A stretch of 64,000 bases of DNA from Thelephora terrestris (taxonomy: Eukaryota; Basidiomycota; Agaricomycetes; Thelephorales; Thelephoraceae), in contig WIUZ02000006.1 in NCBI GenBank assembly GCA_015956445.1, positions 2,289,001 through 2,353,000 of the forward strand, given 5' to 3'. This document shows positions 1,851-61,727 of this stretch, one piece after another. The translations under genes were made by a program, and so were the position numbers. Under the pieces are notes generated by a model that had not been told where the DNA came from, ran no database searches, and was given only the letters and a program-made list of their open reading frames with translations. Numbering within the stretch: position 1 is the first letter of the stretch; each line of letters begins with the position of its first letter.

Positions 1851-1960
1851 TAGCAAACGCGTGCGGGCATCTACATGCTTTCGATAAGAAATGTGACGCG
1901 CAGCCGTGCCCCAGCCCATATGTCCCTCCCGTTAGTAATCTTAGTTAGAACAGAGTGGTT
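1850..1960 (-). pseudogene. Relic of OXA1 3' trailer
   Basis: The block 'GGCATCTACATGCTTTCGAT..' and the following 'CGCAGCCGTGCCCCAGCCCAT' match the sequence just downstream of the intact OXA1 stop codon (about 24418-24505). Only the trailer survives here. It then runs into the 3' flank of membrane gene A, which shows the same convergent order (carrier then OXA1 end) as the other units. Confidence 0.5.
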
Positions 1961-2153
1961 CCAAGGCATGAAAACAGCGCGTGATTCTCTTACGGGACCG
2001 CAGGGTGGGCCCATCGAAGTAATTCGCTGCACCAGCCGTGTATGAACGTGCCAACTTAACGCTAACGATAAAAGTACATAGACGAACAGACAACCATAAA
2101 AACCCGAATCTGGGGGGTACGACGAAGAATACAATGACAGGTGCTGACACCAA

Positions 2154-2252
2154 CTAACTATTGATGATATCGTTCGAGAGCTCGAGGATCAAGTGAAGGG
2201 CAAGCAAGAACAAAACTGCGTAACCGCTGGCGAGGACAATGCCGCCGATCCA
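2154..2252 (-). pseudogene. Severed 3' end of membrane gene A
   Basis: Read on the minus strand this encodes the last transmembrane segment of the family (WIGGIVLASGYAVLFLLALH.. then ..ELSNDIINS and a stop at 2154-2156). It corresponds to the ends of genes B (8455) and C (20725). It is separated from the rest of gene A by the transposon at 2253-4699. Joining 2252 to 4706 restores the order of residues seen in the paralogues, so the element inserted inside the last exon. Confidence 0.85.
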
Positions 2253-2606
2253 TATACTGTTCAAAGTGCACAAAAAATAGTTTCAGCCGCGCGAAGCAAT
2301 TCCCTCGCACGAAACTCACCAATCACCTCGCACGAAACTCGTCAGTCACCTCGCACGTGTTGTCCCCCAGGTCGCACGAGCACCCAGGCTCCTCCTGGGG
2401 GAAATTCCCACCTTTTTCTAAACAGACCCGAAGGTAGGCAGTCTGTTCCGTCGGCTTGCACACTATATAGAGGTAGTTTCGAGGCGGTATTCCCATTTTT
2501 CTGACCTTCGGAACGGCCTCGGGACTTTCCGAGATCCGATCAATTCCTCGGTATTCCGCCCAGCATTGTCGTTAGAAAACTCGCCGGGGTGTTGGACTGC
2601 CACTGA

Positions 2607-3934
2607 TATGGCGGTCGAAGTGCACAAAAAATATTCTCACGCGCGCGATGCAATCACATCGCGCGAAACCTGTCACCCCGCACGAAACTCCCCAATCATC
2701 TCGCACGAAACTTGTTGCTCACCTCGCACGAACACCCAGACTCCTCCTGAGGGGGATTCCCGCCTTTTTCCGAATAGATCCGAAGGTAGGCAGTCTGTTC
2801 TGTCGGTTAGCACGCTATATAGAGGTAGTTTCGGGGCGGTATTCCCATTTTTCTGACCTTCGGAACGGCCTCGGGACTTTCCGAGACCGAGATCCGATCA
2901 ATTCTTCAGTATTCCGCTAGATTCCGCTTAGTATTGACACGGGTCAACATTAGAATACTTGCCGGGGTGTGATGTTGCCACTGAGTGACTGTCCGCAGGA
3001 ATAGGTTAGACAGCAAATATATGTATCCGCCGTAGAAGGGTGCCCGCTCCCGCATTTCACCGTGTTCCTGACCCTCCACAGCGGTCGGGGTCCTTCACCT
3101 TCCTTAACAGTCCAAAAATAATCACCTAGGTTCGAATGCACACTGTGTACATCCCACGGACAGTCACTCACTGAGGCTCCTGTTTTAATAAAGACTTGCT
3201 AGCGCTCCTATGTTTAATTTGATCCTATGTTATTTTCGACATATTATTGATTATATGTTCGCCCGTTTTCGGCCTTGGCTGCATCCCGTTTCGAGATATT
3301 CCGCTTCCCGCTCAGTAGATAACCTCACTGTGGTTCGCCCGCTTCCACCCCTTAGCATTGCTCTTATTTCTTATGTACTGAGACAATTCTATCCTGTCTA
3401 CCTAGATGCGATCCCGCCAAACGCGCCTTCACCATTTCATGATAAAACAATCAAACTACTAAAATAGGTCGAAAATAACATAAGATGAAACCAAATATAA
3501 GAAGGCTGTCGCGAGTCTTAGAGGGGCAAACACACCTGAAAATATTATAAAAGGAGTCTCAGTGGCAGCACAACGCCCTGGCGAGTTTTCTAACGCCAAT
3601 TCGCGGCAATGCTGGACAGTGGGCGGAATACTGGAATTGATCGGATCACAGGTCTCGGAAAGTCCCGAGGCCGTTCCGAAGGTCAGAAAAATGGGAATAC
3701 CGCCCCGAAATTGCCTCTATATGGCGTGCAAACCGACGGAACAGACTGCCTACCTTCGGGTCTGTTCGGAAGCAGGTGGGAATTCCCTTCAGGAGGAGTC
3801 TGAGTGTTCGTGCGACGTGGAGGACAACATGTGCGAGGTGATTAATGAGTTTCGTGCGAGGTGATTGGTTAGTTTCGTGAGAGACGATTGCATCGCGCGC
3901 GCGAATTTATTTTTTGAGCACTTTGAACAGTATA
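2607..3934. mobile_element. Inner copy of the same foldback transposon
   Basis: It starts TATGGCGGTCGAAGTGCAC at 2607 and ends GCACTTTGAACAGTATA at 3934. It is flanked by a direct CACTGA duplication (2601-2606 and 3935-3940). Without the MITE at 2984-3168 and its 5-bp duplication it is about 1138 bp, close to the 1113 bp of the outer copy, which supports both boundaries. Its middle section (3174-3552) matches the outer middle section (about 3941-4297) in reverse orientation, so the two copies lie head to head. It is inserted at the arm/middle border of the outer copy. Confidence 0.87.
2984..3168. mobile_element. 185-bp MITE inside the inner transposon
   Basis: The terminal inverted repeat is AGTGACTGTCC (2984-2994) and GGACAGTCACT (3158-3168). 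It is flanked by a CACTG direct duplication (2979-2983 and 3169-3173). The equivalent positions of the sister arms (about 3562 and 4300, other strand) lack the insert and read straight through CACTGAG/CACCGAG, which confirms an insertion. There is no coding capacity. The exact edge of repeat versus duplication is slightly ambiguous because the repeat itself begins like the target. Confidence 0.8.
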
Positions 3935-4588
3935 CACTGAGACTCCTTTTATAATATTTGTATGTGTTTACCCCTCTAGGACTCGCGACGGCCTTCTTAT
4001 TTTGTTTTCATCTTATGTCATTTTCGACATATTTTAGTAGTTCAACTGTTTTATCATGAAATGGTGAAGGAGTGTTCGGCGGGATCGCATCTAGATAGAC
4101 AGGATAGAATAGTACATGAGAAATAAAAGCAATGCTAAGGGGTGGAAGTGGACGAACCGCAGTGCGGAATGTCTTGAAACGGGATGGGGCCAAGGCCGAA
4201 AACGGGCGAACATATAATCGACAATATGTCGAAAATAACATAGGATCGAAGTATTTAAACATAGGAACACTAGCAAGTCTTTATTAAAAAAAGGAGCCTC
4301 GGTGATAATATCACGCCCCAGCGAGTATTCTAATGTCAATTCGCAGCAATACTAATAAGCGGAATCTAGCGGAATGCTGAAAAATTGATCGGATCTCGGT
4401 CTCGGAAAGTCCCGAGGCCGTTCCGAAGGTCAGAAAAATTGGAATACCGCCCCGAAACTACCTCTCAATAACGTACAAACCGACGGAACAGATTTCCTAC
4501 CTTCGGATTTATTTGGAAAAAGGTGGGAATTTTCCTCAGGACAAGACAGGGTGTTCGTGCGAAGTGCGGGACAAAACGTGCGATGTGA

Positions 4589-6443
4589 TTAACGAGTTCC
4601 GCGCGAGGTGATTGGTGAGTTTGTGCGGGGTGACAGGTTTTGTGCGACGTGATTGCATCGCGCGCGCGAAAATATTTTTTGTGCACTTCGAACGGCATAG
4701 ATCCAGGCTGCCTTCGTGATATCATAGTCATATCCGGGGGCTATGACATCGTACGCACGTTGAGCCCCCCTCCCCAACACACTCGAGTTACAGTAACAGG
4801 TGCTGAACACATCGGAGAACTGGAACACACACGCGAGGATGATGCAGAGAGTGTTGCAAACGGCGGCGAATGTCGATAACCGTCGCAAGAAGGTGGCGAG
4901 ACCTTCAGCGAGGTTGGAGAAATCGAATCCAGAGCTTGAGGTCTCGCCACGGTCGTGATGATGCAGTTTGGCGAGATGGGCGAGGTAGCTCGAGAGCAAC
5001 AACGTCAACCATATCGTGGTTGAAATCATGCCATAGAGGATGTAAGTGCCAGAGCGGCACCCGAGTCCAGTGGTAGGCGTGAAAATGACGGTGATAGCGG
5101 CTGAGGCGGTGGTAGACCACTGTAAGCCCAGCGCGAAAAGGGACGCGACGAATATCCTTATCCACACCCCAGAAGGCATGGGTGGGTTTGGCTCGTCGTC
5201 TTCCCAGCCATCGAATCCGCAGTAAGCCTGGACTTGCTCGAGGGACCCAACTCTATTGTCACGGTGGTGCGTGACCCGTCTCTCGTCCGTGAATTTCCAT
5301 CCGTTCCTGAAGTTTACGGGGGTGTGTCTCTTCGCCATCCTGTCCGCGCTCTCGAAGGCCTGGGCGACCATTTCGACAGCTGAGTGCCACTCCCAGATCC
5401 TCGCGTAGTTGAAGACTGGCGCAGTCCTCGCGGCGTCCTGGGTGAAGACCTCCTTCTTCTCATATATCCCAAGCCCTTGCATGTCGGAGACTTCGCTTGC
5501 TCGCCTTGGGGGGTTGATCCCGACAGCGTTGTTGACCTGGGAGGGTTTTTCGGGGGCAGTAACGAAGGCGATCTCGTTGGCCTTGTTGATCGCAGCCTTC
5601 AGCTTCTCGTAGGAACAGACAGGGACCCAAAGCCACCCGACGACCATGGGAACAAGCCACAGCCAGAGGATCCCGGCTCCCTGACCGCTGGAGTTGACGT
5701 TACTTCCCAGATTCATGACAGAGTCCGCGATGGTGAAGATGAGGGCGATCATCACCCATGCTACGGACGTTGCTGCGGCGATTGTCCAAGTATAGGTTTG
5801 CTGGAGTCTGTCGACGAGAGATTCCCACCAATCATCGTTCTCGGGAAGGACTATGAGGGAAGCGAGTAGACCCTCGGAGGTGGTGAGGCGAAGTGGGACT
5901 TGTTGGAGGTAGATCAGGGCCTTCGCAGCGTTCTCGTGGTTGGGATATTTGATGGTCGAGAAGCGTTCGTTTCCCCAGCGAGTGTTGAGGGCAGTGATGA
6001 AGAGAGAAAATGCCGCGAGAGTAGGGGAGCCAACGGTAAGAGCGACTGGTGGATTTTGGTAAGTAAGGGATCGCCCCAGCAAACTGGTTCAAGACACGAG
6101 GAAACTCACCAGAAATCAGGTTATCAATGCGGCTCTCCGCCCCAAAGGGTAGCTGACTGACCAGAGCCAGCCACGGCAGAAGCCAGGCAGAGAACTGCTG
6201 GGAGAAGATGGACCAGTTAAATGGTTCCTGACCGGCGCCACACGATACCATGCATTGCTCGTAGGTCAAGCCGACAGCATCCCGGGAATCGTTCACGGGT
6301 CTACCGAAGAAGTCTGTTCCGCCTGTGGCATTGCCATTGGCCCTGAACGTTTCCAGGCACCGGGTAAAGGTGTGCGAGGTCGAGACGGAAACGAAGAAGA
6401 AAGATATGAAAAGGAACAGCTTGACACTGCCAGTTGATCTCAT
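4589..6443 (-). CDS. Polytopic membrane protein A, C-terminus replaced by transposon sequence
   Basis: Two exons: 6110-6443 (ATG at 6443, donor GTGAGT) and 6045 downward, with a 64-nt intron. The N-terminus is a signal peptide (VKLFLFISFFFVSVSTS) followed by a small luminal/extracellular part with conserved Cys (LTYEQC.VSCG) and SQQFSAWLLPWLALVSQLPF. Exon 2 holds several hydrophobic segments (TWTIAAATSVAWVMIALIFT, LWLWLVPMVVGWLWVPVC, VASLFALGLQWSTTASAA, IWLTLLLSSYLAHL, FAAVCNTLCIILACVF). The family is one I recognise only as uncharacterised in Agaricomycetes. After TKAAWI (about 4703) the frame runs into the transposon arm and stops at 4589, so the last membrane helix is lost and about 37 residues come from the element. 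Topology and function are unknown. Confidence 0.8.
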
Positions 6444-13617: not shown

Positions 13618-16600
13618 ATGTTCAAAAGAAAATTCAAAAACCGATCCAACCCCCCCACGAACCTCTTGTCGGGAACTCCCACTAACGTTGCCGTCAGTCC
13701 GCTCCGCTTCCGAGCTGAACCAGACACCGATACTCAAGGTGGACAACGCCACCTCCAAACATCACGATTCTAGCTGATCTAGCTGTATTATAGATGAAAA
13801 CGACCCTGGGCCTTCGAGGATCGTGTTTGGTGAAAGTGGGAGCGAGGCCGCCGTGCTAGGAACCTCGATCGCTGTTGCGAATGACGATATCGAACCCAGC
13901 GACTACCCAACAAGTAAGTGCTTCCACTCCTCGAAACTACGGCCGATGTTTACCTGTACCTCTTGCCTATCGGCTTCTAGAGGAGAATATCAGTCACACA
14001 AGATGGGGAGAAGGTGACGCAAGGGTAGCTTCGAAGGGTGAGCGTTTGTGTTGTTGTATCGCTCGCATCCACTTACCATCTGTCAGCTCCCGAAGAAGAC
14101 CACAGGAGGGCGCACGGGGATCCCTTTGTTATCAACGAAACCGGAAAGAAGAGTGGCTTTGGTCCTCTCAAAGCCCTACTAGGGGCAATCTCTGCCCTCT
14201 ACACGGATCGTGAAGTTCGTAAACGCTTCCCTACTTGAAACGTTAGGTTAACACCCCTCTGTAGGGAACCATCGCCGTTGGAAACAAGAGCGGAGTGCTC
14301 TTCCTACGTATAATTTCACTGGATGAGCATTTTGCCACACCTCCAAATGGCGTCACAGAGCAGAGGCGCAGGCATGAACTGATACGGTATGCCAGGATTG
14401 CCCCTTCTACGCTCAGTGCTAACTTCCTTCTAGCAAGTTAAAAGCCATAGAGGGACAACTGCAACCGTTTCATGAGTTACAGCAGCTAGCCCACAACGTT
14501 GAAGGCGATGAAGATGGGTTCGGGCCTCTCGAAGATCTCGAAGAGGCAATCTTCCACTACCAGGTTTGTTTCATAATCTGGCAGTGGCCTAGGGTTAACA
14601 TGGAGCATAGATGGAAAGACAGACGGTGATTGTCGGTCAAGGGTTCAAACAGATAGTGAGTGCCCTCTTTCGCGTCTGGTATACGAAATGACACCTCCCG
14701 ACAGGATCCAGGTTGGAACACCATCTGCTGCTGTGATTCTAATGACAGTTGTCTGATGTGTTTTTGCAGCTGAAGCGAAGGTCCTAAATAATTTTCACTG
14801 TGCACAACAGGCCGAGTTTCGACACGGGAACCGTAATGGCTGTCTCAAAGGGACTCGCAGAGGCGTTCTTGCCGAGATTGAACTCTGGGCGCACGAGTTT
14901 CACAAGCCACCTGTTTATTGGTTGAATGGGCTCGCCGGAACGGGGAAAAGCACCATCGCTCAGACAATCGCGGAGAAGGTGTTTGCAAACGGACAGCTCG
15001 GTGCCTCCTTCTTCTGCTCCCGGGACTTTGAGGACCGGAGCAACCTTCGGTTCATCTTTCCCACCTTAGCTGTCCAACTTGCACGCACGTACCCTGAATT
15101 TCGATCGATCTTCGTCCCATTGGTGCGGTCGGATCCAGGGGTCGCCCACGAGTCCCTGTATGGACAAATGGACAAACTGATAGTCCAACCCCTCGTGGAA
15201 TCCGCCATCTCTACCGTGATCGTGATCGACGCGTTGGACGAATGTAAAGACAACGAACCGGCTTCCGCGATTCTCTCTGTCCTTGGCCAATTTGTGGCTA
15301 AGATCCCAAAGGTCAAGTTCCTCATCACTGGTCGTCCAGAACTCCGCATCAGAGAAGGTTTCAGACTCCCGTTGTTGATCGATGCGACAGACGTGTTCGT
15401 CCTTCACGAGGTTGAGCCGAGTCGAATCAACAACGACATACGGCTGTTCTTCAGGCACACCTTTTTCGAACTCAAGGGACGTCGACGCGTACCGGATGAC
15501 TGGCCGACTGAAGAACAGCTGAATACCCTCTGTGATCGTGCAGGGGGTCTGTTTGTTCATGCGGTGGCTACCGTTAGGTTCCTCGACCTCAAGAACAAAA
15601 ATCCCAAGAGACAGCTGGATCGCCTCCTCCAGACGCCGGAGAACAGCGCCTTCGAGGGGAAGACCAAGTTTAGGGCCAACACGACGCTCGATCTGCTCTA
15701 CATGACGATCCTTCATGAAGCCTTCGGTGACGACGACCCGGAGGATGATCCCAAGATCCGGTCCGTTCTCGGTGCTGTGGTCCTTTCTGCAAATCCACTC
15801 TCTCCATCCACCATCGCCACGCTGCTGGGCCTTGAGGCCGAAGACGTATTTCCCCTCCTGTCATCGATCCACTCACTCCTGGTTCTCCGGGAAGAAGACG
15901 TCGATCACATTGTCAGACCCTTTCACAAGTCGTTTCCCGACTTCGTCGTCGATACAGCCCGTTGTACAGATTCAAGGTTTCGGGTCTCCCCTCCCGATCA
16001 ACACGCCGAACTTCTGATCGGCTGCCTGGAATTAATGAACCACAGACTGGAGCTGAACATGTGCAAACTCCCGAATGGGTTCATGAACTCAGAGGTTGCT
16101 GACCTGAGGGAGAGGACCAAAGAGCACATCGATAAAGCTTTGGAATACGCGTGCAGGTCTTGGTACAGGCACCTAGTCAACACGAAACAGGCACGGTCAC
16201 TCGAAATCACGCCCATCCTGCGCCGATTCCTGGAGAAAAACTTTCTCTTCTGGCTGGAAGTGCTCAGCGTCCTTGGTGCTGCGAGGGAAGCAGTTGATGC
16301 ACTGGAAGCAAGTGCAGGGTGTCTCAATGTACGTTTGTATTTTGCTTTCTTTTTTCGGAAATTTACCCATGCTGGATTCAGGACTTGCCGACTCTTGAAC
16401 TTGTCGGGGACTACACTCGCTTCGTAATCACGTTCTTCGAAGTGATCAGCACCTCCGCACCACACATCTATATTTCCGCGCTCCCCCTGTCCCCCCACTC
16501 ATCGATCGTGCGTGGGTTGTACCAACAATACGCCCGTCCCTTGGTGAGAGTCATACGAGGGTTACCGATTTCATGGGAACCGGTTGTTACAGCCGTGCGC

Positions 16601-18310
16601 AATGATCCCATCAGAGATGTTGCATGGTCACCGTGTAACAGATTTATTGCAATTGTTTCTGCAACAGTAGAAATTCTTGATGCAGTGACTCTCAAGCGAC
16701 TCAATACCTTTGAGACCCCTTCAAGTCTCGACTCCCCACGGCTTTGTTTCTCCCCAGACGGCCACTCTCTGACACTTTTTTATCACGGGAGGTTTACAAG
16801 CTGGGACCTCCAGACCGGTGGTCCAGCCGGCACTGTCCTCTCAGTAAGCCCTCTCCTGCCTCACGATCACTTCTCATCCACACATTCCACGGATGGAAAA
16901 ATCCTTGCGGCGGTTTTGAACCCTCGTCTCTCAATCGCTACCTATGACCTTCTATCCAGGACCCAAACATGTACCCATCGTGTGCCGAAGCGGCGGCCTC
17001 TCGTACACCCAATTTGGACTCATGGTGAATGTCTCCGATTCGCTACTCTAGAATCAGGGTCTATCACCATATGGGAAATTGCCTTCGCCTCAACACACCC
17101 GCCGGCAGAAGTTGAGTCTTTTCCTGCTCCGGATGAGATTGCCCATGGGGAACAATTCCTATTCCTCCCTGCTCTCTCTCGGTTGGCCTTCGCTCACCAA
17201 GGGTCAATTTTGGTATGGGACATCAAGGATTCAAAGTTTCTCCTGAACTCGAGGTCCACCATCCTCAACAGCTATCATCATCACAGGTGTTCTTTCTCAT
17301 CCGATGGTCGCTTCTTTGCATATTTGACCGCTGAACGCGAAGTCTCTGTTTGGAAGGAGTCCTCTGCCGGCTACACGCTTCATCAAAAGCTTACATTCCC
17401 CTCCGAGGACATGCATAGTGGACCACATCTTTCCCCAAACGGAAAATCAGTCGTTGTGGTCCTTGGCTCAGCAATTCACTTATGGCATACTAAAGATCAA
17501 GATCTCCCCCTCTTCAGTGTTCCAAGTCAGCGTCACGCTTGGGACTCCTCCATTCTGGTATTCTCTCCAGACGAAACCTTAGCGGCACTCGGAACCCCCT
17601 TGGGAAACACAGTTACAATCCTTGACCTTCGGTCTGGTGACCCCCGGTTAGTTATTGACACAGGCATGGAAGTTGAGTGTCTGGGGATGACTGGAAACAC
17701 AATTGTTGCTGTCTGTTGGGGAAAGGCCATCACATGGAGCATACCGGAAAAGTCCACACTCAACGCCACGGCGGATGTCAATGACAGCATTCGGGTGACA
17801 CTTTTCAGGTCATGCTCTTTCAGATATCAGAAACCCGCCAGCATGTCGATTTCCCCTGATTCCGGCCGTGTCCTCATTTGGGGTCCTCTCATCAAGCATT
17901 CGTATGGTAGTGTGGAAATTTACGATGTGTCTACCGGGAAGCGTCTCGCAGGCGTCAGATTGCCCCGTGATCTGTCATCAGCATCGTTTACTCTAGACGG
18001 ACTTGAGGTTTGGGGTGAGGATTCTTGCTCAATGATTGGGTGGAAAGTCGTCGAGGACAGTGAATCAGGCATCACTGAGTTGGAGCGCCTAGAGCCAACT
18101 ACGTTTCCGCCGGAACTACTCCCCTCAAATTCATTCTGTGGACACAGAATCATGCACGATGGGTGGATAATAAGCCCTACCAAGAAGCGACTTTTGTGGT
18201 TGCCTAATCATTGGAGGTCGGATGATTGGCTCCCATCGTGGGGTAGGCGGCTCCTTGGGTTGAAGTGTCGTGGGACATCAGATGTTGTCATTCTAGAGTT
18301 TTTCGAATGA
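13618..18310 (+). CDS. NLR protein 1: helical N-terminus, NACHT, WD40-like propeller
   Basis: Fungal STAND/NLR receptor. Proposed start 13618 (MFKRKFK), because NLR2 begins in the same way and both continue to ..GTPTNVAVSPLRFR / GIPTSIATGPLGFR. Several small N-terminal exons follow (about 13790-14570), including SGFGPLKALLGAISALYTDR. The large exon 14770-16328 carries the NACHT NTPase: Walker A GLAGTGKST, FFCSRDFEDRSNLRFIFPTL, Walker B TVIVIDALDEC, LITGRPE. A 53-nt intron (16329-16381) precedes the last exon to 18310, with degenerate WD40 blades (WSPCNRFIA, FSPDGHSLTLF, LSPNGKSVVVV, FSPDETLAALG). Such proteins are proposed to act in non-self recognition and cell death. No known effector domain is visible at the N-terminus. 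N-terminal exon borders are approximate. Confidence 0.85.
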
Positions 18311-33331: not shown

Positions 33332-36300
33332 CGTAGAGGGAGATTGTGGTGGATGCGTAGAGGCCACACAAAGTAGCGAAAACCTGATCTTATCCGAAAA
33401 CAAAATTTTCTACCGTCACGTGACTGCGATCGATGACAGCGTCCCGGCGTTCCGATTGGCTATCGGCCTAGGTAGCAAAGCGTCGGGAATTGCGTAACTT
33501 CTTTCCCTCTGGAGAATCGCCGAAGATAAATGGATAGTCGTGAATACGACATGCTGAAAGGGGAAAGTGTCCCGTGATAGCTATTACTGGAAGGGAGAGT
33601 GTCCAGCTCAGAAGCTGATACTCAGAGCGAGGAGCGTTGTAGGGCTGTCAAAAAAGTGGCTCTGTGCAAGCGTCCCAGTAACCAAGATTCGTACACTTGG
33701 AGATATGTACAGAGATCCTTTGGTCCAATATCAGAATCAGAAATGCGTTTGTTCCACCGACCACCAGCGTGCAAGAGTCCACCTTTCTGTCCGAAGGACT
33801 ACCCTAGCCCACAAGCCTTGAGAAAACTACCCGAATCGGTGAATCCGAACCGCACTCACCATCGATTACCAAAGGATTGATGCAGATGCGCCAGGATACT
33901 TGGAGGCATAATCTTAGGCGACGCCACTGACAGTTACGGATGGGTACTGTGGTGTTTTCAACCCAGCGGTCATGTTGTCGCTCTTTATGACCCGGTCCAG
34001 GAGACGAACCGTCTGGCAAAGCTGGTGGCCATTGTCGTTCTCATAGTTAAGTCGTACTGAGGTACAGGGCTTTGTTGACAACTGGAGCAGAGAGAGGGTT
34101 AGTGCTGAGTTGATACCACATGACGGGTGGTGAGATAGGCGGTTTACAAAAAGACGACGCGGCGGTGTTCAACGACGGCGAAAATGTGGGGCCGCATAGA
34201 TTGTTCGCTGCGACGTGAAGTAGAAACCAGAAGTCGTCAGAAATCCATAAAACGCGCCCGGACACATCCATACAATGGAAACCAACCCGACCACTCGGGT
34301 AACGCTATGCCGGAGAATCCTGTTGGTCGTCTCCATCGCGACTTCGGATGGTGGAAACCACCGGATGATTCCATGACTTCTGATCTTGAGCTGTTCGCAA
34401 GTTCCGGGTTTCCAGTCCTGCTGGCACCAGAAGGTAAGCGTGTAGTACCCTAAGGGGTTTCTGGCCAAACCTCACCACGCCATTCCTCGCAAAAAATTCC
34501 TAGAATCTCCATTGGTATGACATTCTCGTCTTCGCAACTGCCGAGCTCGAGCCCTGTGACAATACAGAGATCATTTGTCAGAGATTCATTGGTCGACGTC
34601 GCTGGAGGTGGCGACTCGGCGTCCCCCCGAGCCATCCCCCCCGCTCTGAATCTGAGGCTGGATTCCACCCTAGGGGAGGGAGAGAACGATCGGGTGTTGA
34701 CAATGGAAAGGAGAACATTTGTAAATCGACAGTCAGGAAGAAGCATCTCGAGTCATTTGCTTGGACCCCAAGATCTGCGGAAGAGGGTCAACGGCCTGCC
34801 TGAGGAGTCGGACGAGGCGAAAATATGGAGGATTATCACCACGATCGTGGGTATAGCTGCTCAACTTGGTAACTCACTTACCTAACCCGGCCCTGAAGTG
34901 AAGGATGATGAGCACTGGGGCTACTGTCTCGACCTCTGGCAATCCGTGTCAAAAGTTGTAGAAGGGTGACATCAGCCAAGTTTTGTTTGGGGTGTCTGCG
35001 GCCTACAACGGAGCGGTCGGGTCTCTGCCCCCCCCCCCCCCCCCCCCCCCCCAAAGTATATCTGTTTTATGCGCGGGTATACATACACGGTGTAGCCCTA
35101 CTACCTGGACTCAGTCGGTCAGCCACTCTTGCAGCTGTTGCCGGAGATTGATCTGAGCGCATCTGGGGTTCGTTTTTAGTGACATCCTGGCGGCTCGCTG
35201 AGCTCATATTTACTGATTCAGCTACTGCTTTCGGTACACCGGGTCTCGCTACAACGTCATAATATAATTCCATCTTGCGAATTCTTGTTCCTTGTAATTG
35301 GCTGTGGTGAAAGTGGGAACGTAAGGACGCCGACGATGGCATGGTGTGAGGAAAATGTGGTACGCCAGATGTCCAGGTACTTGGAACACCATGGATGCCG
35401 CCCAAACAGACGTGCCAATGGGCGACATCCCGCCACCCAGGATCGATTTCATTGATGGGCTTCTTACTGGACTTCAAACTCTAAGCCACAAGGCATATTT
35501 CGCCGTAACTGTAGCGGCTGAAATTCAATAACCCAAATCGACTGTAATTCAGGCTTTCTACGTCGCCTCTCAGGTAAGCACCAGCATTCAGTGCCCCACA
35601 CCAACTGAATTTTTCAGTCCGGTTTAGTCGAAACACGACTGGATTTGCAATATCAGAGGGATTCTAGGTTGAGGCGCCGGTTTTTTACACTGTTTCTAAG
35701 ACGATGGGCAATCCAATGGTCAGTGTATTTTAAATAGCACTAAAAGTGTGGTTCCGCTAATTTACATGAAACTGTTCTTCCCTGCATAACCCTGCATCCA
35801 CGACTCGTCGTGAGGGAGGAAGCCACCTGGGGCCAGGGGGTAGCCTACCTGCGAGGTTGCTGCTGGTTACTGGGTCTTATAGGCGAATTATGTAGAGTCC
35901 TGACGGCCGGCAAAAACGTGGGCGATTTTTCATCTGCTACCGGACCCTGCATGGAACCGCCACGCGGATCCCTTGCTGAGCAACTGTCCCTACACAGACC
36001 TCTTCAGGGAACACGATGAACTCTAGGCGCCTGCTCTCTATCTGGATGGCTCAGGGTCTTGGACTATTTAAGAAGGACCCTTGATGGACACTCGGGATCT
36101 CAACTTTGCTGGCAAACCTCGGGAATCGCTTGTACACGCGTTACCCACGAGACCTTGCTGAGAAGCATGACAGGCATTGCCGGGAAACCAAGACAAAACA
36201 AAAGAGGATAACAGGCTCATCCGCGCTTCGGTATCCGATGCGGAGGAATCGTCACTAGCACTCGCCCTCTCGAGTACGTACGCCCACCGCGATATGTCAC

Positions 36301-57033: not shown

Positions 57034-60000
57034 ATGTCTGACAAAAAGTCAAAAAAATCACTCAAGCATCTCGCAAAGAATGCCTTGCTGGGAATACCCA
57101 CCAGCATCGCCACTGGTCCGCTCGGTTTCCGAACGGAGCTGGACGTCGACCCCAAAAGTGAATACGATCGTTTACGATTTTCAGAGCGATTCGACCTGAT
57201 TCGACTGCAACGCTAGATACAGATAACCCTAGACCCGCACGCATCCTGTTTCGCGAAAAGGAGGATGAAGCTCAGGGGCCCTCCATGCCAGGAACCTCGA
57301 TTCCCCTTATCGCGATCGGCGACATCGAGCATGAGAACCGTCCTATAGGTCAGCGCTTCTGATCCCACGTACGGTTGCGGTCAACGTTGACGATTGTCTC
57401 TTTTCTTTTGCGCATTAGCGGAGAGCACCAGCATCGCAGGGCAAGAGGAAGGTGAACCAGAGCCGCCGTTCACAGGTGGGCGTCGATATCTTCACGCCGT
57501 CCGGATTCTCTTGACATCTACCAGCCCCGAAAGAAAACCGCAAGAACGCAACGCATGGATCTCGCTTCATTCCTGGTATCTTAAAGAAGGGCCTAGATGG
57601 GTTCGGTCCCCTCAAAGCTCTCCTAAAAAAGATCCCTACCGTCTACGCTGATCGCAAAGTTCGCCCACGATTCCCTACTTTAAATCCCTGTTCGACTGAC
57701 CTCTCTGCAGGGGTCAGAAACAAGGTCACGCTACTGCGCTCACATATAACCTCACTGGATGCAGTTTTTGCCACACCTCCGAATGTCAGGTCAGAGCTGC
57801 AGCGTCGGGATGAACTGATACGGTATGTTGCGTCACCCCTTTGTCGATCAGTGCTAACTCCCCACTAGCAAACTCGGGGGCATCAAGGATCAACTGCAGT
57901 TGTTGTCCGTGGAGCCTGGATCACAGCAACTTGGTGATGACAATGGTGAAAACCTGTTGAAGGTCCTCGAAGATTTACAAGAGGCGATCTTCGATTATCA
58001 GGTTCGTTCACGACTTGGTATTCTTCTCAATGTTGACAAGCCTGAGGGACAACAGATGGCGCGACGAACGTCGATCGTCGATCAGGGATCGGAACAGATG
58101 GTAAGCGTCTCCTCCTACGTCGTGGACCAGCGAAATGACCTCTCTCTGTAGGACTCAGGTCAGAATACTTTCCCTTTACACGTTTCCAGCGACGGTCATC
58201 TGAATTCATCATTCTCCCCGGCAGCCGAAGCTGCTGTCATCAAAGATTTCCGCTACGCAAAACGGGCCGAATATCGACACGGTAACCGAGGTGGTTGCCT
58301 CAAGGGAACCCGCGGAGCCATTTTGGACGAGATCGAATTATGGACGGGCGACTCTGGCCAGCCCACCGTCTACTGGTTGAATGGACTTGCTGGAACGGGA
58401 AAGACCACGATTTCCCAGACGGTCGCGGAAAGGGCGTTCGCGGACGGGCGGCTTGGCGCCTCCTTCTTCTGCTCCCGGGACTTTGAGGACCGTAGAAACC
58501 TCGAGTTTATCTTCCCCACCCTAGCTATTCAACTCGCACGGAAGTACACCGAATTCCGATCGATCTTCGTCCAGTTGGTCCAGTCAGATCCAGATGTTGT
58601 CGACGAGTCACTGTGTGGCCAGATGGACAAGTTGATCGTCCAGCCCCTGGTGCAATCCGCCATCTCGACCGTAATCGTAATCGACGCGTTGGACGAATGT
58701 AAAGATGAAGAACCTGCTTCCGCAATCCTGTCTGTCCTCGGCCAGTTTGTAGCCAAGATCCCAAAGGTCAAGTTCTTCGTCACCGGTCGTCCAGAGCCCC
58801 GTGTTCGAGAAGGGTTCCGGCTCCCGCTGTTAGCCGCTGCGACTGACGTGTTTGTCCTTCACGAGGTCGAGTCGAGTCGGGTCAACAACGACATACGGCT
58901 GTTCTTTATCCACAGCTTCTCCGAACTCAAAGGACGTGGGCGTATATCAGATGGCTGGCCGACCGAAGAACAGCTGGATTTGCTTTGCAATCGTGCGGGG
59001 GGGCTCTTCATCCACGCAGTGGCTACGGTCAGGTTCATCGACCTCAGGAACAACAATCCCAAAAGGCAGCTGGATCGTCTCCTGAAGTCGCCGGAGAGCA
59101 GTGCGTTCGAGGGGAAGACCAAGTTCAGGGTAGACGTGACACTCGATCTGCTCTACATGACAATTCTCCGCGAGGCCTTTGGCAACGACGACCCGGAGGG
59201 TGATTCTAAGGTCCGGTCTGTCCTTGGTGCTGTCATTCTCGCCATGAATCCGCTCCCTCCATCTACTATTGCTGCACTCTTGGGCTTGGATCCTGAAGAT
59301 GTCCTCCCCCTTCTATTGTCAATGTGCTCATTCCTTGTTCTCAAGGAGGGTGTTGATAACCCTGTTCGACCCTTCCACAAATCCTTCCCGGATTTCATCG
59401 TTGATCCGTCCCGGTGCACCGACCCAAGATTTTCTGTCTGTCCTCCTGATCAACACATGGAACTTCTGGTTGGCTGCCTTAGCTTAATGAATCAAAAGCT
59501 GGAGCAGAACATGTGCAGGCTCCCAGATGGGGCTAGGAACTCAGATGTCAATGACCTCAAGGAGAGGTCCAAGGAATATATTGGCCAAGCTTTGGAATAT
59601 GCCTGCAGATCATGGCACAAGCACCTTCTTGATACAGCACCTGCTCACAGGCCAAAAATCATATCTGTCCTGCACCAGTTCCTGGAGGAGAAGTTTTTGT
59701 TCTGGTTGGAAGTGCTGAGTGTCCTTGGTGTTGCAAGGGAAGCAGTTGATGCATTGCAAGCAGTTGAAAAGTGGTTAGATGTATGTCACTTTCTAAATAG
59801 TTCTTTTTCCAAGGTTTACTGATGTTAGTCACAGGTTTCACCAACTCTTGATCTCACCAGGGACTGCCTCCATTTCTTGGTTGCATTCTTTGAAGTCATT
59901 AGCACGTCCACGCCCCATATCTATCACTCTGCGCTCCCCCTATTCCCTCAGACATCAACTGTGCACAAGTTGTACAAGTCATATGCCAGTCCCTTAGTGA

Positions 60001-61727
60001 GGGTTGTGCAAGGGGTATCAATTGTGCAGGAGCAATTTGTTGCGAGCAAGTCTCACAGTGATCATATTTGTGGAATGACTTGGTCACCATCCAATAAACT
60101 TATTGCAGTTGCCTGGAGCAGTTCTCAAAAAACAGCCATCCTTGATGCAACAACTCTAAAACAACTCAATACCTTTGAGTCATGTAGACATGGTTTTCGT
60201 CACCCATGGCTTGGTTTTTCCCAAGAAGGCCACTTTTTGGCAGAGTTTGATAGAAAAAACATCATGAGCTGGGACCTCCAGACAGGTGGTGAAGTCAGTT
60301 CTTTTAACACAGGGTTGTACTTAACCTCAAACTTTGAGTTTTCATCTGCATATTCTATGGATGGAAAGATGCTTGCAGTTGTATTTTGGAATTGGAATGG
60401 CTTGTTCCCTACTGTGATAATTTCTATCTACAACATCCTCTCCCAGGAACGTGTGTGTTCCCATACACTACAAGGGTCTGTGGTATCAGTTTGGAGCCAG
60501 GGTGTATGCTTCCGGGTTGCTGCCAGAGGGCTGGGATTTCTAACTGTGTGGGAGGTTGGGTTCAGCCCATTTCCTTCTCCAGTTGAGGTTGGGAAATATC
60601 CTATACCATATGAAATTGAATCTGCACGGGAAATCCTGTTTTTGCCTACTGTAACCCGACTTGCCTTCACTCTTGTAGGGAAAGTTCTGATTTGGGACAT
60701 CCAGGGTTCAAGGGCCCTTCTTGATCTTATGGGTGAAGAGATGGAGATGATATCCTTCTCCCCTAATGGAAACTTTTTTGCATGTGTATGTGGTCAGGAA
60801 CTTCATGTCTGGAAAGACTCCCCCACTGGCTATGTCCTCCACCAGAATGTTCTATGGGACATAAGGAGATATCTTTTTTCTCCAGATGGTGAATCAATAA
60901 TCATATCTGATGACAAGAGCCTTCATCTACTGTCCACAAGAGATCCAATCCCCTCCCCCTCTGATGCTCAGACACAGTCTATAGACTGGTCTCCCTTCAT
61001 TTTGGAATTTTCACCAGATGAAAGATCAGCTGCAATTGCAAGGAAGAAGGAAAACACAGTCACAATCCTTGAGCTCAAGTCCGGCAACCCACAATTGATA
61101 GTCAATGCAGGCATCGAGATTTATGGTCTGAGGGTAACCAGGGCTGCCATCATCATTGTTGGTGAAGGGGTAATCATTACTTGGAACCTGCCTGTGGGAG
61201 ACTGTGCCACTACTGCTTATGCATACCCCAAAGATAGTGTCCAGACCATAATGTTCAACTATTCTGGGTACTATAGCAGTGCATTGATATCCCCTGATCT
61301 CAAACACATTGCTATCCTCAGTCATTTCACATTGTCCATTTATGACACATCTACTGGAAAACATCTTACAAGCATTGAACAAGGCTTTGGGTTAAGGCCT
61401 TATTTTTCTCCAGATGGACATGAGCTTTGGTGTGTGGATGGAAATTCAATGAGTGGGTGGAAAATCATTGGGGATGGTGGATCTAGTGTCTTCCAGCTGG
61501 AGCCCCTGGAGCCAACTGTGTCTCCATCTGGTGTATTTTCCTGGCAATCATCTCAGGGCTATGAAATCACACCTGATGGTTGGGTCCTTGACTCTACCCA
61601 CAAACAACTCTTATGGTTACCACATCACTGGAGATCACATGAGAAGCACATCATATGGGGTGGGCAGTTTCTTGGGTTGCTGCATGGTGCACTTAAACAG
61701 GCTGTCATTCTGGAATTTCCCATGTGA
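57034..61727 (+). CDS. NLR protein 2: helical N-terminus, NACHT, WD40-like propeller
   Basis: Paralogue of NLR1 with the same architecture and the same intron before the propeller (59781-59834). Proposed start 57034 (MSDKKSKKSLKHLAKNALLG), with small N-terminal exons to about 58000 including FGPLKALLKKIPTVYADRKV and LLKVLEDLQEAIFDYQ. The NACHT exon ends at 59780: Walker A GLAGTGKTT, FFCSRDFEDRRNLEFIFPTL, Walker B TVIVIDALDECKD, VTGRPEPRV. The last exon 59835-61727 encodes degenerate WD40 blades (WSPSNKLIAVAW, FSQEGHFLAEF, FSPNGNFFACV, FSPDERSAAIA). The frame is open throughout. From about 59420 onwards CpG is rare, unlike NLR1 and unlike its own NACHT half. N-terminal exon borders are approximate. 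Confidence 0.87.

Follow-up and report, generated by a model that had tools for sequence, protein, structure and literature searches.

Structure of the nest in gene A

The window analysed here, a stretch of 64,000 nucleotides, comprises bases 2289001-2353000 of contig C56 of Thelephora terrestris; the genome searched amounts to 40.6 Mb in 60 contigs. Near the start of the window, the last exon of a minus-strand gene (gene A) is interrupted by a transposable element that contains a second copy of its own family, which in turn contains a MITE. The features of this region are as follows.

2154-2252, minus strand: 3' remainder of the gene A last exon, beginning with GATCCA copy 1 (2247-2252) and ending in the stop codon (2154-2156)
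2247-2252: target duplication GATCCA, copy 1, exactly 6 bp
2253-4699, plus strand: outer IS3EU-type non-autonomous element, net 1113 bp (2253-2606 plus 3941-4699), with ends TATACTGTTC and TATGCCGTTC
2601-2606: target duplication CACTGA, copy 1, exactly 6 bp
2607-3934, minus strand: inner IS3EU-type element, in opposite orientation to the outer one, net 1138 bp after removal of the MITE and one ACT
2980-2982: target duplication ACT, copy 1
2983-3169: MITE of 187 bp, best filed as PIF/Harbinger-like, with TIR GAGTGACTGTCCG
3170-3172: target duplication ACT, copy 2
3935-3940: target duplication CACTGA, copy 2
4700-4705: target duplication GATCCA, copy 2
4706-6088, minus strand: gene A, open stretch 5' of the insertion in the last exon, without a Pfam match at E 0.1

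When 4706-6088 is joined on the minus strand to the stretch ending at 2252, the result is an open frame that ends in KAAWIGGIVLASGYAVLFLLALHLILELSNDIINS and a stop codon. This C-terminus matches those of the paralogous genes B (ending in RAAWIGALVLAGGYVILFLLALHLILELSSDIIND and a stop codon) and C, so the last exon closes in frame after excision; that it closes up had been noted in the first-pass annotation of this DNA. In its interrupted state, gene A has lost its final 30 residues and its frame extends 36 codons into the TIR. Three protein stretches from genes A and B were compared with Pfam at E 0.1 and matched no family. Elsewhere in the window, 14757-18310 and 58152-61727 resemble each other, each holding a gene or gene pair that encodes NACHT and WD40-like domains, and a run of 25 C occupies 35028-35052.

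For both large elements, 6 bp is the sole duplication length that fits the boundaries (lengths 1 to 19 were tried). With the inserts excised and the inner copy reversed, the two elements align from first to last base at 88.8% identity (1082 compared columns, 87 gap columns; K2P 0.123). The CACTGA target of the inner insertion, 354 bp from the left end of the outer element, is uninterrupted in the aligned inner copy, and the MITE site is likewise uninterrupted in the aligned outer copy, giving reciprocal empty sites. Neither element is autonomous, and their TIRs measure about 340 bp. Three of the four ends in the window fit the motif TATRCYGTTC; the inner element's end at 2607, TATGGCGGTC, departs from it. 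The first-pass annotation mentions neither this deviating end nor the reversed orientation of the inner copy. The boundaries, exact duplications, end-to-end alignment and empty sites bear out a GATCCA-flanked element with a CACTGA-flanked second copy inside it, the net sizes and the three nesting levels, all of which had been proposed in the first-pass annotation. The nest is real, and ordinary in kind.

The raw inverted repeats pair in an interlocked fashion (2253-2534 with 3653-3934, and 2607-2686 with 4620-4699), as might also arise if recombination or inversion between the inverted repeats of a single element had rearranged it. However, two copies of one family are expected to interlock when they lie in opposite orientation, and here the pattern arises because the inner copy is reversed. 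Moreover, both copies are full-length, each with its own exact duplication, and rearrangement within one copy would leave unexplained both the second complete set of ends and the CACTGA pair. We therefore regard a rearranged single element as extremely improbable and treat the two large elements as separate insertions.

Boundaries and affiliation of the innermost MITE

The innermost insert reads GAGTGACTGTCCG...CGGACAGTCACTC and lies at ACT. Its family was sampled from 48 listed matches, of which 34 loci were fetched and scanned together with the window, yielding 35 end pairs; the places C5:552800, C8:820114, C12:628, C12:2008470, and C45:546219 were left out, and four of the fetched loci (L072-L075) gave no end pair. 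Identical 3-bp flanks were found in 25 of the 35 pairs, and all are ANT (8 ACT, 7 ATT, 6 AAT, and 4 AGT). A 7-bp duplication fits 2/35 pairs, and a 1-bp duplication fits 27/35, a score that is expected because this base is the middle of the 3-bp duplication. Some of the 10 pairs that lack a matching 3-bp duplication join ends across MITE-in-MITE nests. The first-pass annotation had described a 185-bp MITE with a CACTG duplication, which is one among several symmetrical readings when the window alone is used. Across the family, a 5-bp duplication fits just 3/35 pairs, and the other genomic copies differ from the boundaries proposed, an outcome that the annotation had itself named as contrary to its reading. 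The MITE is thus 187 bp long with an ACT duplication. Its closest relative among 28 full-length copies compared, at locus L044, is 96.3% identical.

At four of the 34 fetched loci (L045, L060, L065, and L068), MITEs of this family are inserted in one another's terminal repeats, as read from the flanks. These insertions are at ACT or AGT, sites that are present within the TIR.

An element of 4327 bp at C4:756898-761224 has the same ends as the MITE, an AGT duplication, and DDE_Tnp_4 in two frames (E 2.4e-16 and, below the cut-off, E 8.8e-4). Because this larger element combines the shared ends with such a duplication and transposase, the MITE is best assigned to a PIF/Harbinger-like group. Nuwa-type families are described as having a second, Myb/SANT protein (PMC12730594); the one plus-strand frame of the C4 element checked for such a protein had no Pfam match at E 0.1.

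Genomic family of the large elements

The terminus pattern, searched with up to two mismatches, occurs at 44 genomic sites, while the reversed control pattern occurs at none. These ends start with TATGG (29), TATGC (12), or TATAC (3), the search pattern itself having fixed TAT. From them, 14 complete insertions were paired by hand, leaving out unpaired ends and the group C12:1191738, 1193125, and 1193837, in which pairing is ambiguous. Nine of the 14, including the two in the window, have an exact 6-bp duplication: GATCCA, CACTGA, CATATC, TGTTTC, GGTTTG, GTTTCG, TTTCCC, AGAAAA, and GAAAAA. By eye, these nine have no common motif. The remaining five are inexact: C12:396398 agrees at 5/6 positions, C58:596317 has an offset GTGAC, and C8:501238, C60:409275, and C56:1239113 are without any duplication. 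The association of TATRCYGTTC-type ends with 6-bp duplications, which the first-pass annotation had put forward for a genome search, thus recurs elsewhere in the genome, the duplication being exact in nine pairs (the window's two included) and inexact or absent in five.

Other IS3EU-type copies lie on the same contig as the window, at C56:1238941-1240498 (L083, 5442-6998) and C56:1217400-1218407 (L085, 1-1008). Two of these copies form an inverted pair with 0 substitutions over 1149 compared columns (2 gap columns). The 188-bp flank of one copy of the pair recurs, identical by eye, beside another end 22 kb away, and TACAAC is present on two L083 ends and single at the distant flank copy. Either the region was duplicated recently, leaving a paralogous empty site, or the pattern is an effect of the assembly.

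Transposase-bearing relatives

A relative of the window elements at C8:587463-592779 (5.3 kb) has perfect 105-bp TIRs and a TTTCCC duplication. Two of its five frame pieces tested contain PF24764 rva_4 (E 1.6e-10 and 9.7e-16), and a weak HTH_21 match falls below the cut-off. Each rva_4 piece has 18 genome matches including itself, the closest others being 77% and 84% identical, respectively. The window elements have roughly 80-100 terminal bases in common with this copy, at 80-84% identity, and among the matches listed none extends beyond them. Since only the ends are common to both, the C8 copy is a putative helper, and its transposase may plausibly have mobilised the window elements.

Published IS3EU elements have TA..TA ends and a target duplication that is usually 6 bp (PMC10045372), and those of rust fungi are described with TAYGG..CCRTA ends, 6-bp duplications, and TIRs longer than 30 bp (PMC12730594). 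Judged from sequence features, the ends and duplications of the window family fit this description; a 6-bp duplication and TA..TA termini are present, and an integrase-core transposase is found in the relative with only its ends in common. An alpha-kinase gene is mentioned for TET-bearing fungal IS3EU families (PMC12730594).

Seven more distant rva_4 hits (on C1, C4, C12, C20, C34, C58, and C59) are 30-35% identical to one C8 rva_4 piece and 42% to the other. A complete GGGTGACT-type MITE lies about 6.5-14 kb downstream of each. Derivation of the MITE from a second rva_4 transposon was considered and rejected, as the ends downstream of these hits belong to complete MITEs (198 bp in six cases and 186 bp on C4). 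They look as if they had been carried along as a larger unit multiplied; one such unit was fetched, and long inverted repeats are absent from the stretch read. The Harbinger-like element on C4 is the better candidate source of the MITE.

Order of events

Containment implies that the MITE entered a pre-existing inner element and that the inner element entered a pre-existing outer element. The first-pass annotation had each level dated by its own target duplication, but the duplications fix boundaries and date nothing. Its order of events was called unambiguous; the nesting sequence stands, whereas the entry of the outer element into gene A ahead of the others is not fixed in this way, because an outer element already carrying its inserts could have transposed as a whole.

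A sister of the outer element on contig C11 (L078) is 97.2% identical to it (K2P 0.029). In the site alignment, this sister has a single uninterrupted CACTGA at the site of the inner element, with one substitution nearby; therefore, barring perfect loss from C11, the inner insertion postdates the separation of the two outer copies. The sister carries two other inserts, at 862-1286 (about 0.4 kb) and 1939-5598 (about 3.7 kb), whose aligned element ends overlap by 2 and 8 bases. An interruption common to both copies was rejected, since these inserts lie elsewhere, at about 321 and 962-969 of the element. Divergence between TIR arms was likewise considered for dating and rejected: in the outer copy of the window the two arms are about 17% different, and the sister shows the same divergence, so this difference is inherited and gives no age.

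The nest might instead have been built elsewhere, with a loaded 2.4-kb composite entering gene A in one step as the last event. Such a history is compatible with the containment and with the GATCCA duplication, and the pieces of gene A on both sides are still open in frame, as they would be after a recent insertion. However, no second composite was found among the family ends read, where the window alone has an end preceded by outer sequence up to position 354, and the C11 sister is without the inner element at that site. The lack of another composite among these ends favours entry of the outer element into gene A first. We infer this order and consider one-step arrival of a composite improbable.

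Insertions within the same family

Three of the 14 complete insertions (3/9 of those with an exact duplication) are nested in their own family: the one in the window, C8:587463, at position 790-795 of a long-TIR element, and C12:397268, at about 865-870 of another. C60:409275, which adjoins a C-type element and lacks a duplication, was left out of this count. With the family taken as roughly 0.09% of the genome (26 places assumed), three in 14 differs from uniform insertion at P 2e-7. The enrichment may reflect directed insertion, with the IS3EU-type elements of this genome preferring the internal portion of the long TIRs of their relatives. When the two window elements are removed, 2/12 still gives P 0.0005 if 30% of the genome is tolerant of insertion and 0.017 if 5% is, but the events are few and the enrichment is no longer clear at 2% (P 0.09). 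The three target sites all fall 23-32% of the element length away from an end, a clustering that is not significant (P 0.08), and the lack of a common motif among the nine duplications also speaks against a directed mode. A bias towards self-insertion is thus possible on the basis of few cases, and directed targeting seems rather unlikely as its cause. If real, it would represent a self-targeting, self-limiting insertion mode for this integrase-like transposase, and the repeated own-family nests offer a testable hint of insertion preference in a little-studied superfamily.

Origin of the nest and comparison with known systems

Taken as a whole, the nest very probably arose through three insertions in succession, made by two DNA-transposon systems that are unrelated to each other. 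An integrase-like transposase of the IS3EU type, plausibly supplied by the C8 copy, would have mobilised the long-TIR non-autonomous elements by staggered 6-bp insertion. A first copy would have entered the last exon of gene A at GATCCA, a reversed relative would then have inserted into it at CACTGA, and a PIF/Harbinger-type transposase would have placed the MITE in the inner copy at ACT. The boundaries, duplications, orientation, nesting, and empty sites are observed directly, and both transposase types (rva_4 and DDE_Tnp_4) are present in the genome; which transposase moved which element we infer. The nest shows, to the base, how insertions can be ordered relative to one another by containment, with each copy acting as the other's empty site, and one genome links the long-TIR elements to an IS3EU-type transposase and the MITE to a Harbinger-like source.

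Plant PIF/Harbinger elements usually duplicate TWA, whereas the MITE family of the window duplicates ANT. The likeness to PIF/Harbinger (PHIS) MITEs lies in the short TIRs, the 3-bp duplication, and the longer relative (4.3 kb) that shares these ends and has DDE_Tnp_4. The large elements resemble IS3EU (Repbase; fungal families described in PMC12730594) in their TA..TA termini, with TATGG..CCATA in 29/44 ends, in having TIRs longer than 30 bp and 6-bp duplications, and in the integrase-core transposase of a relative; they differ in that the window copies are non-autonomous with TIRs of the size given above.

As kinds of event, nesting and self-insertion are well known (PMC4744444, PMC3411680, PMC6911290); the wider literature compared here also includes PMC10045372, PMC12730594, and PMC4455052, and the terms "IS3EU" and "nested insertion" both occur in PMC9970103. 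For self-insertion into TIRs, our literature search found nothing beyond one paper on Helitrons (PMC5148889). P-element self-insertions (PMC4744444) are likewise copies inside copies but concern P constructs. The "autoinsertions" of plant LTR elements (PMC6911290) share same-family nesting with the window but involve a different kind of element, and the nested elements of Laccaria (PMC3411680) similarly lie inside one another but comprise mixed fungal TEs.
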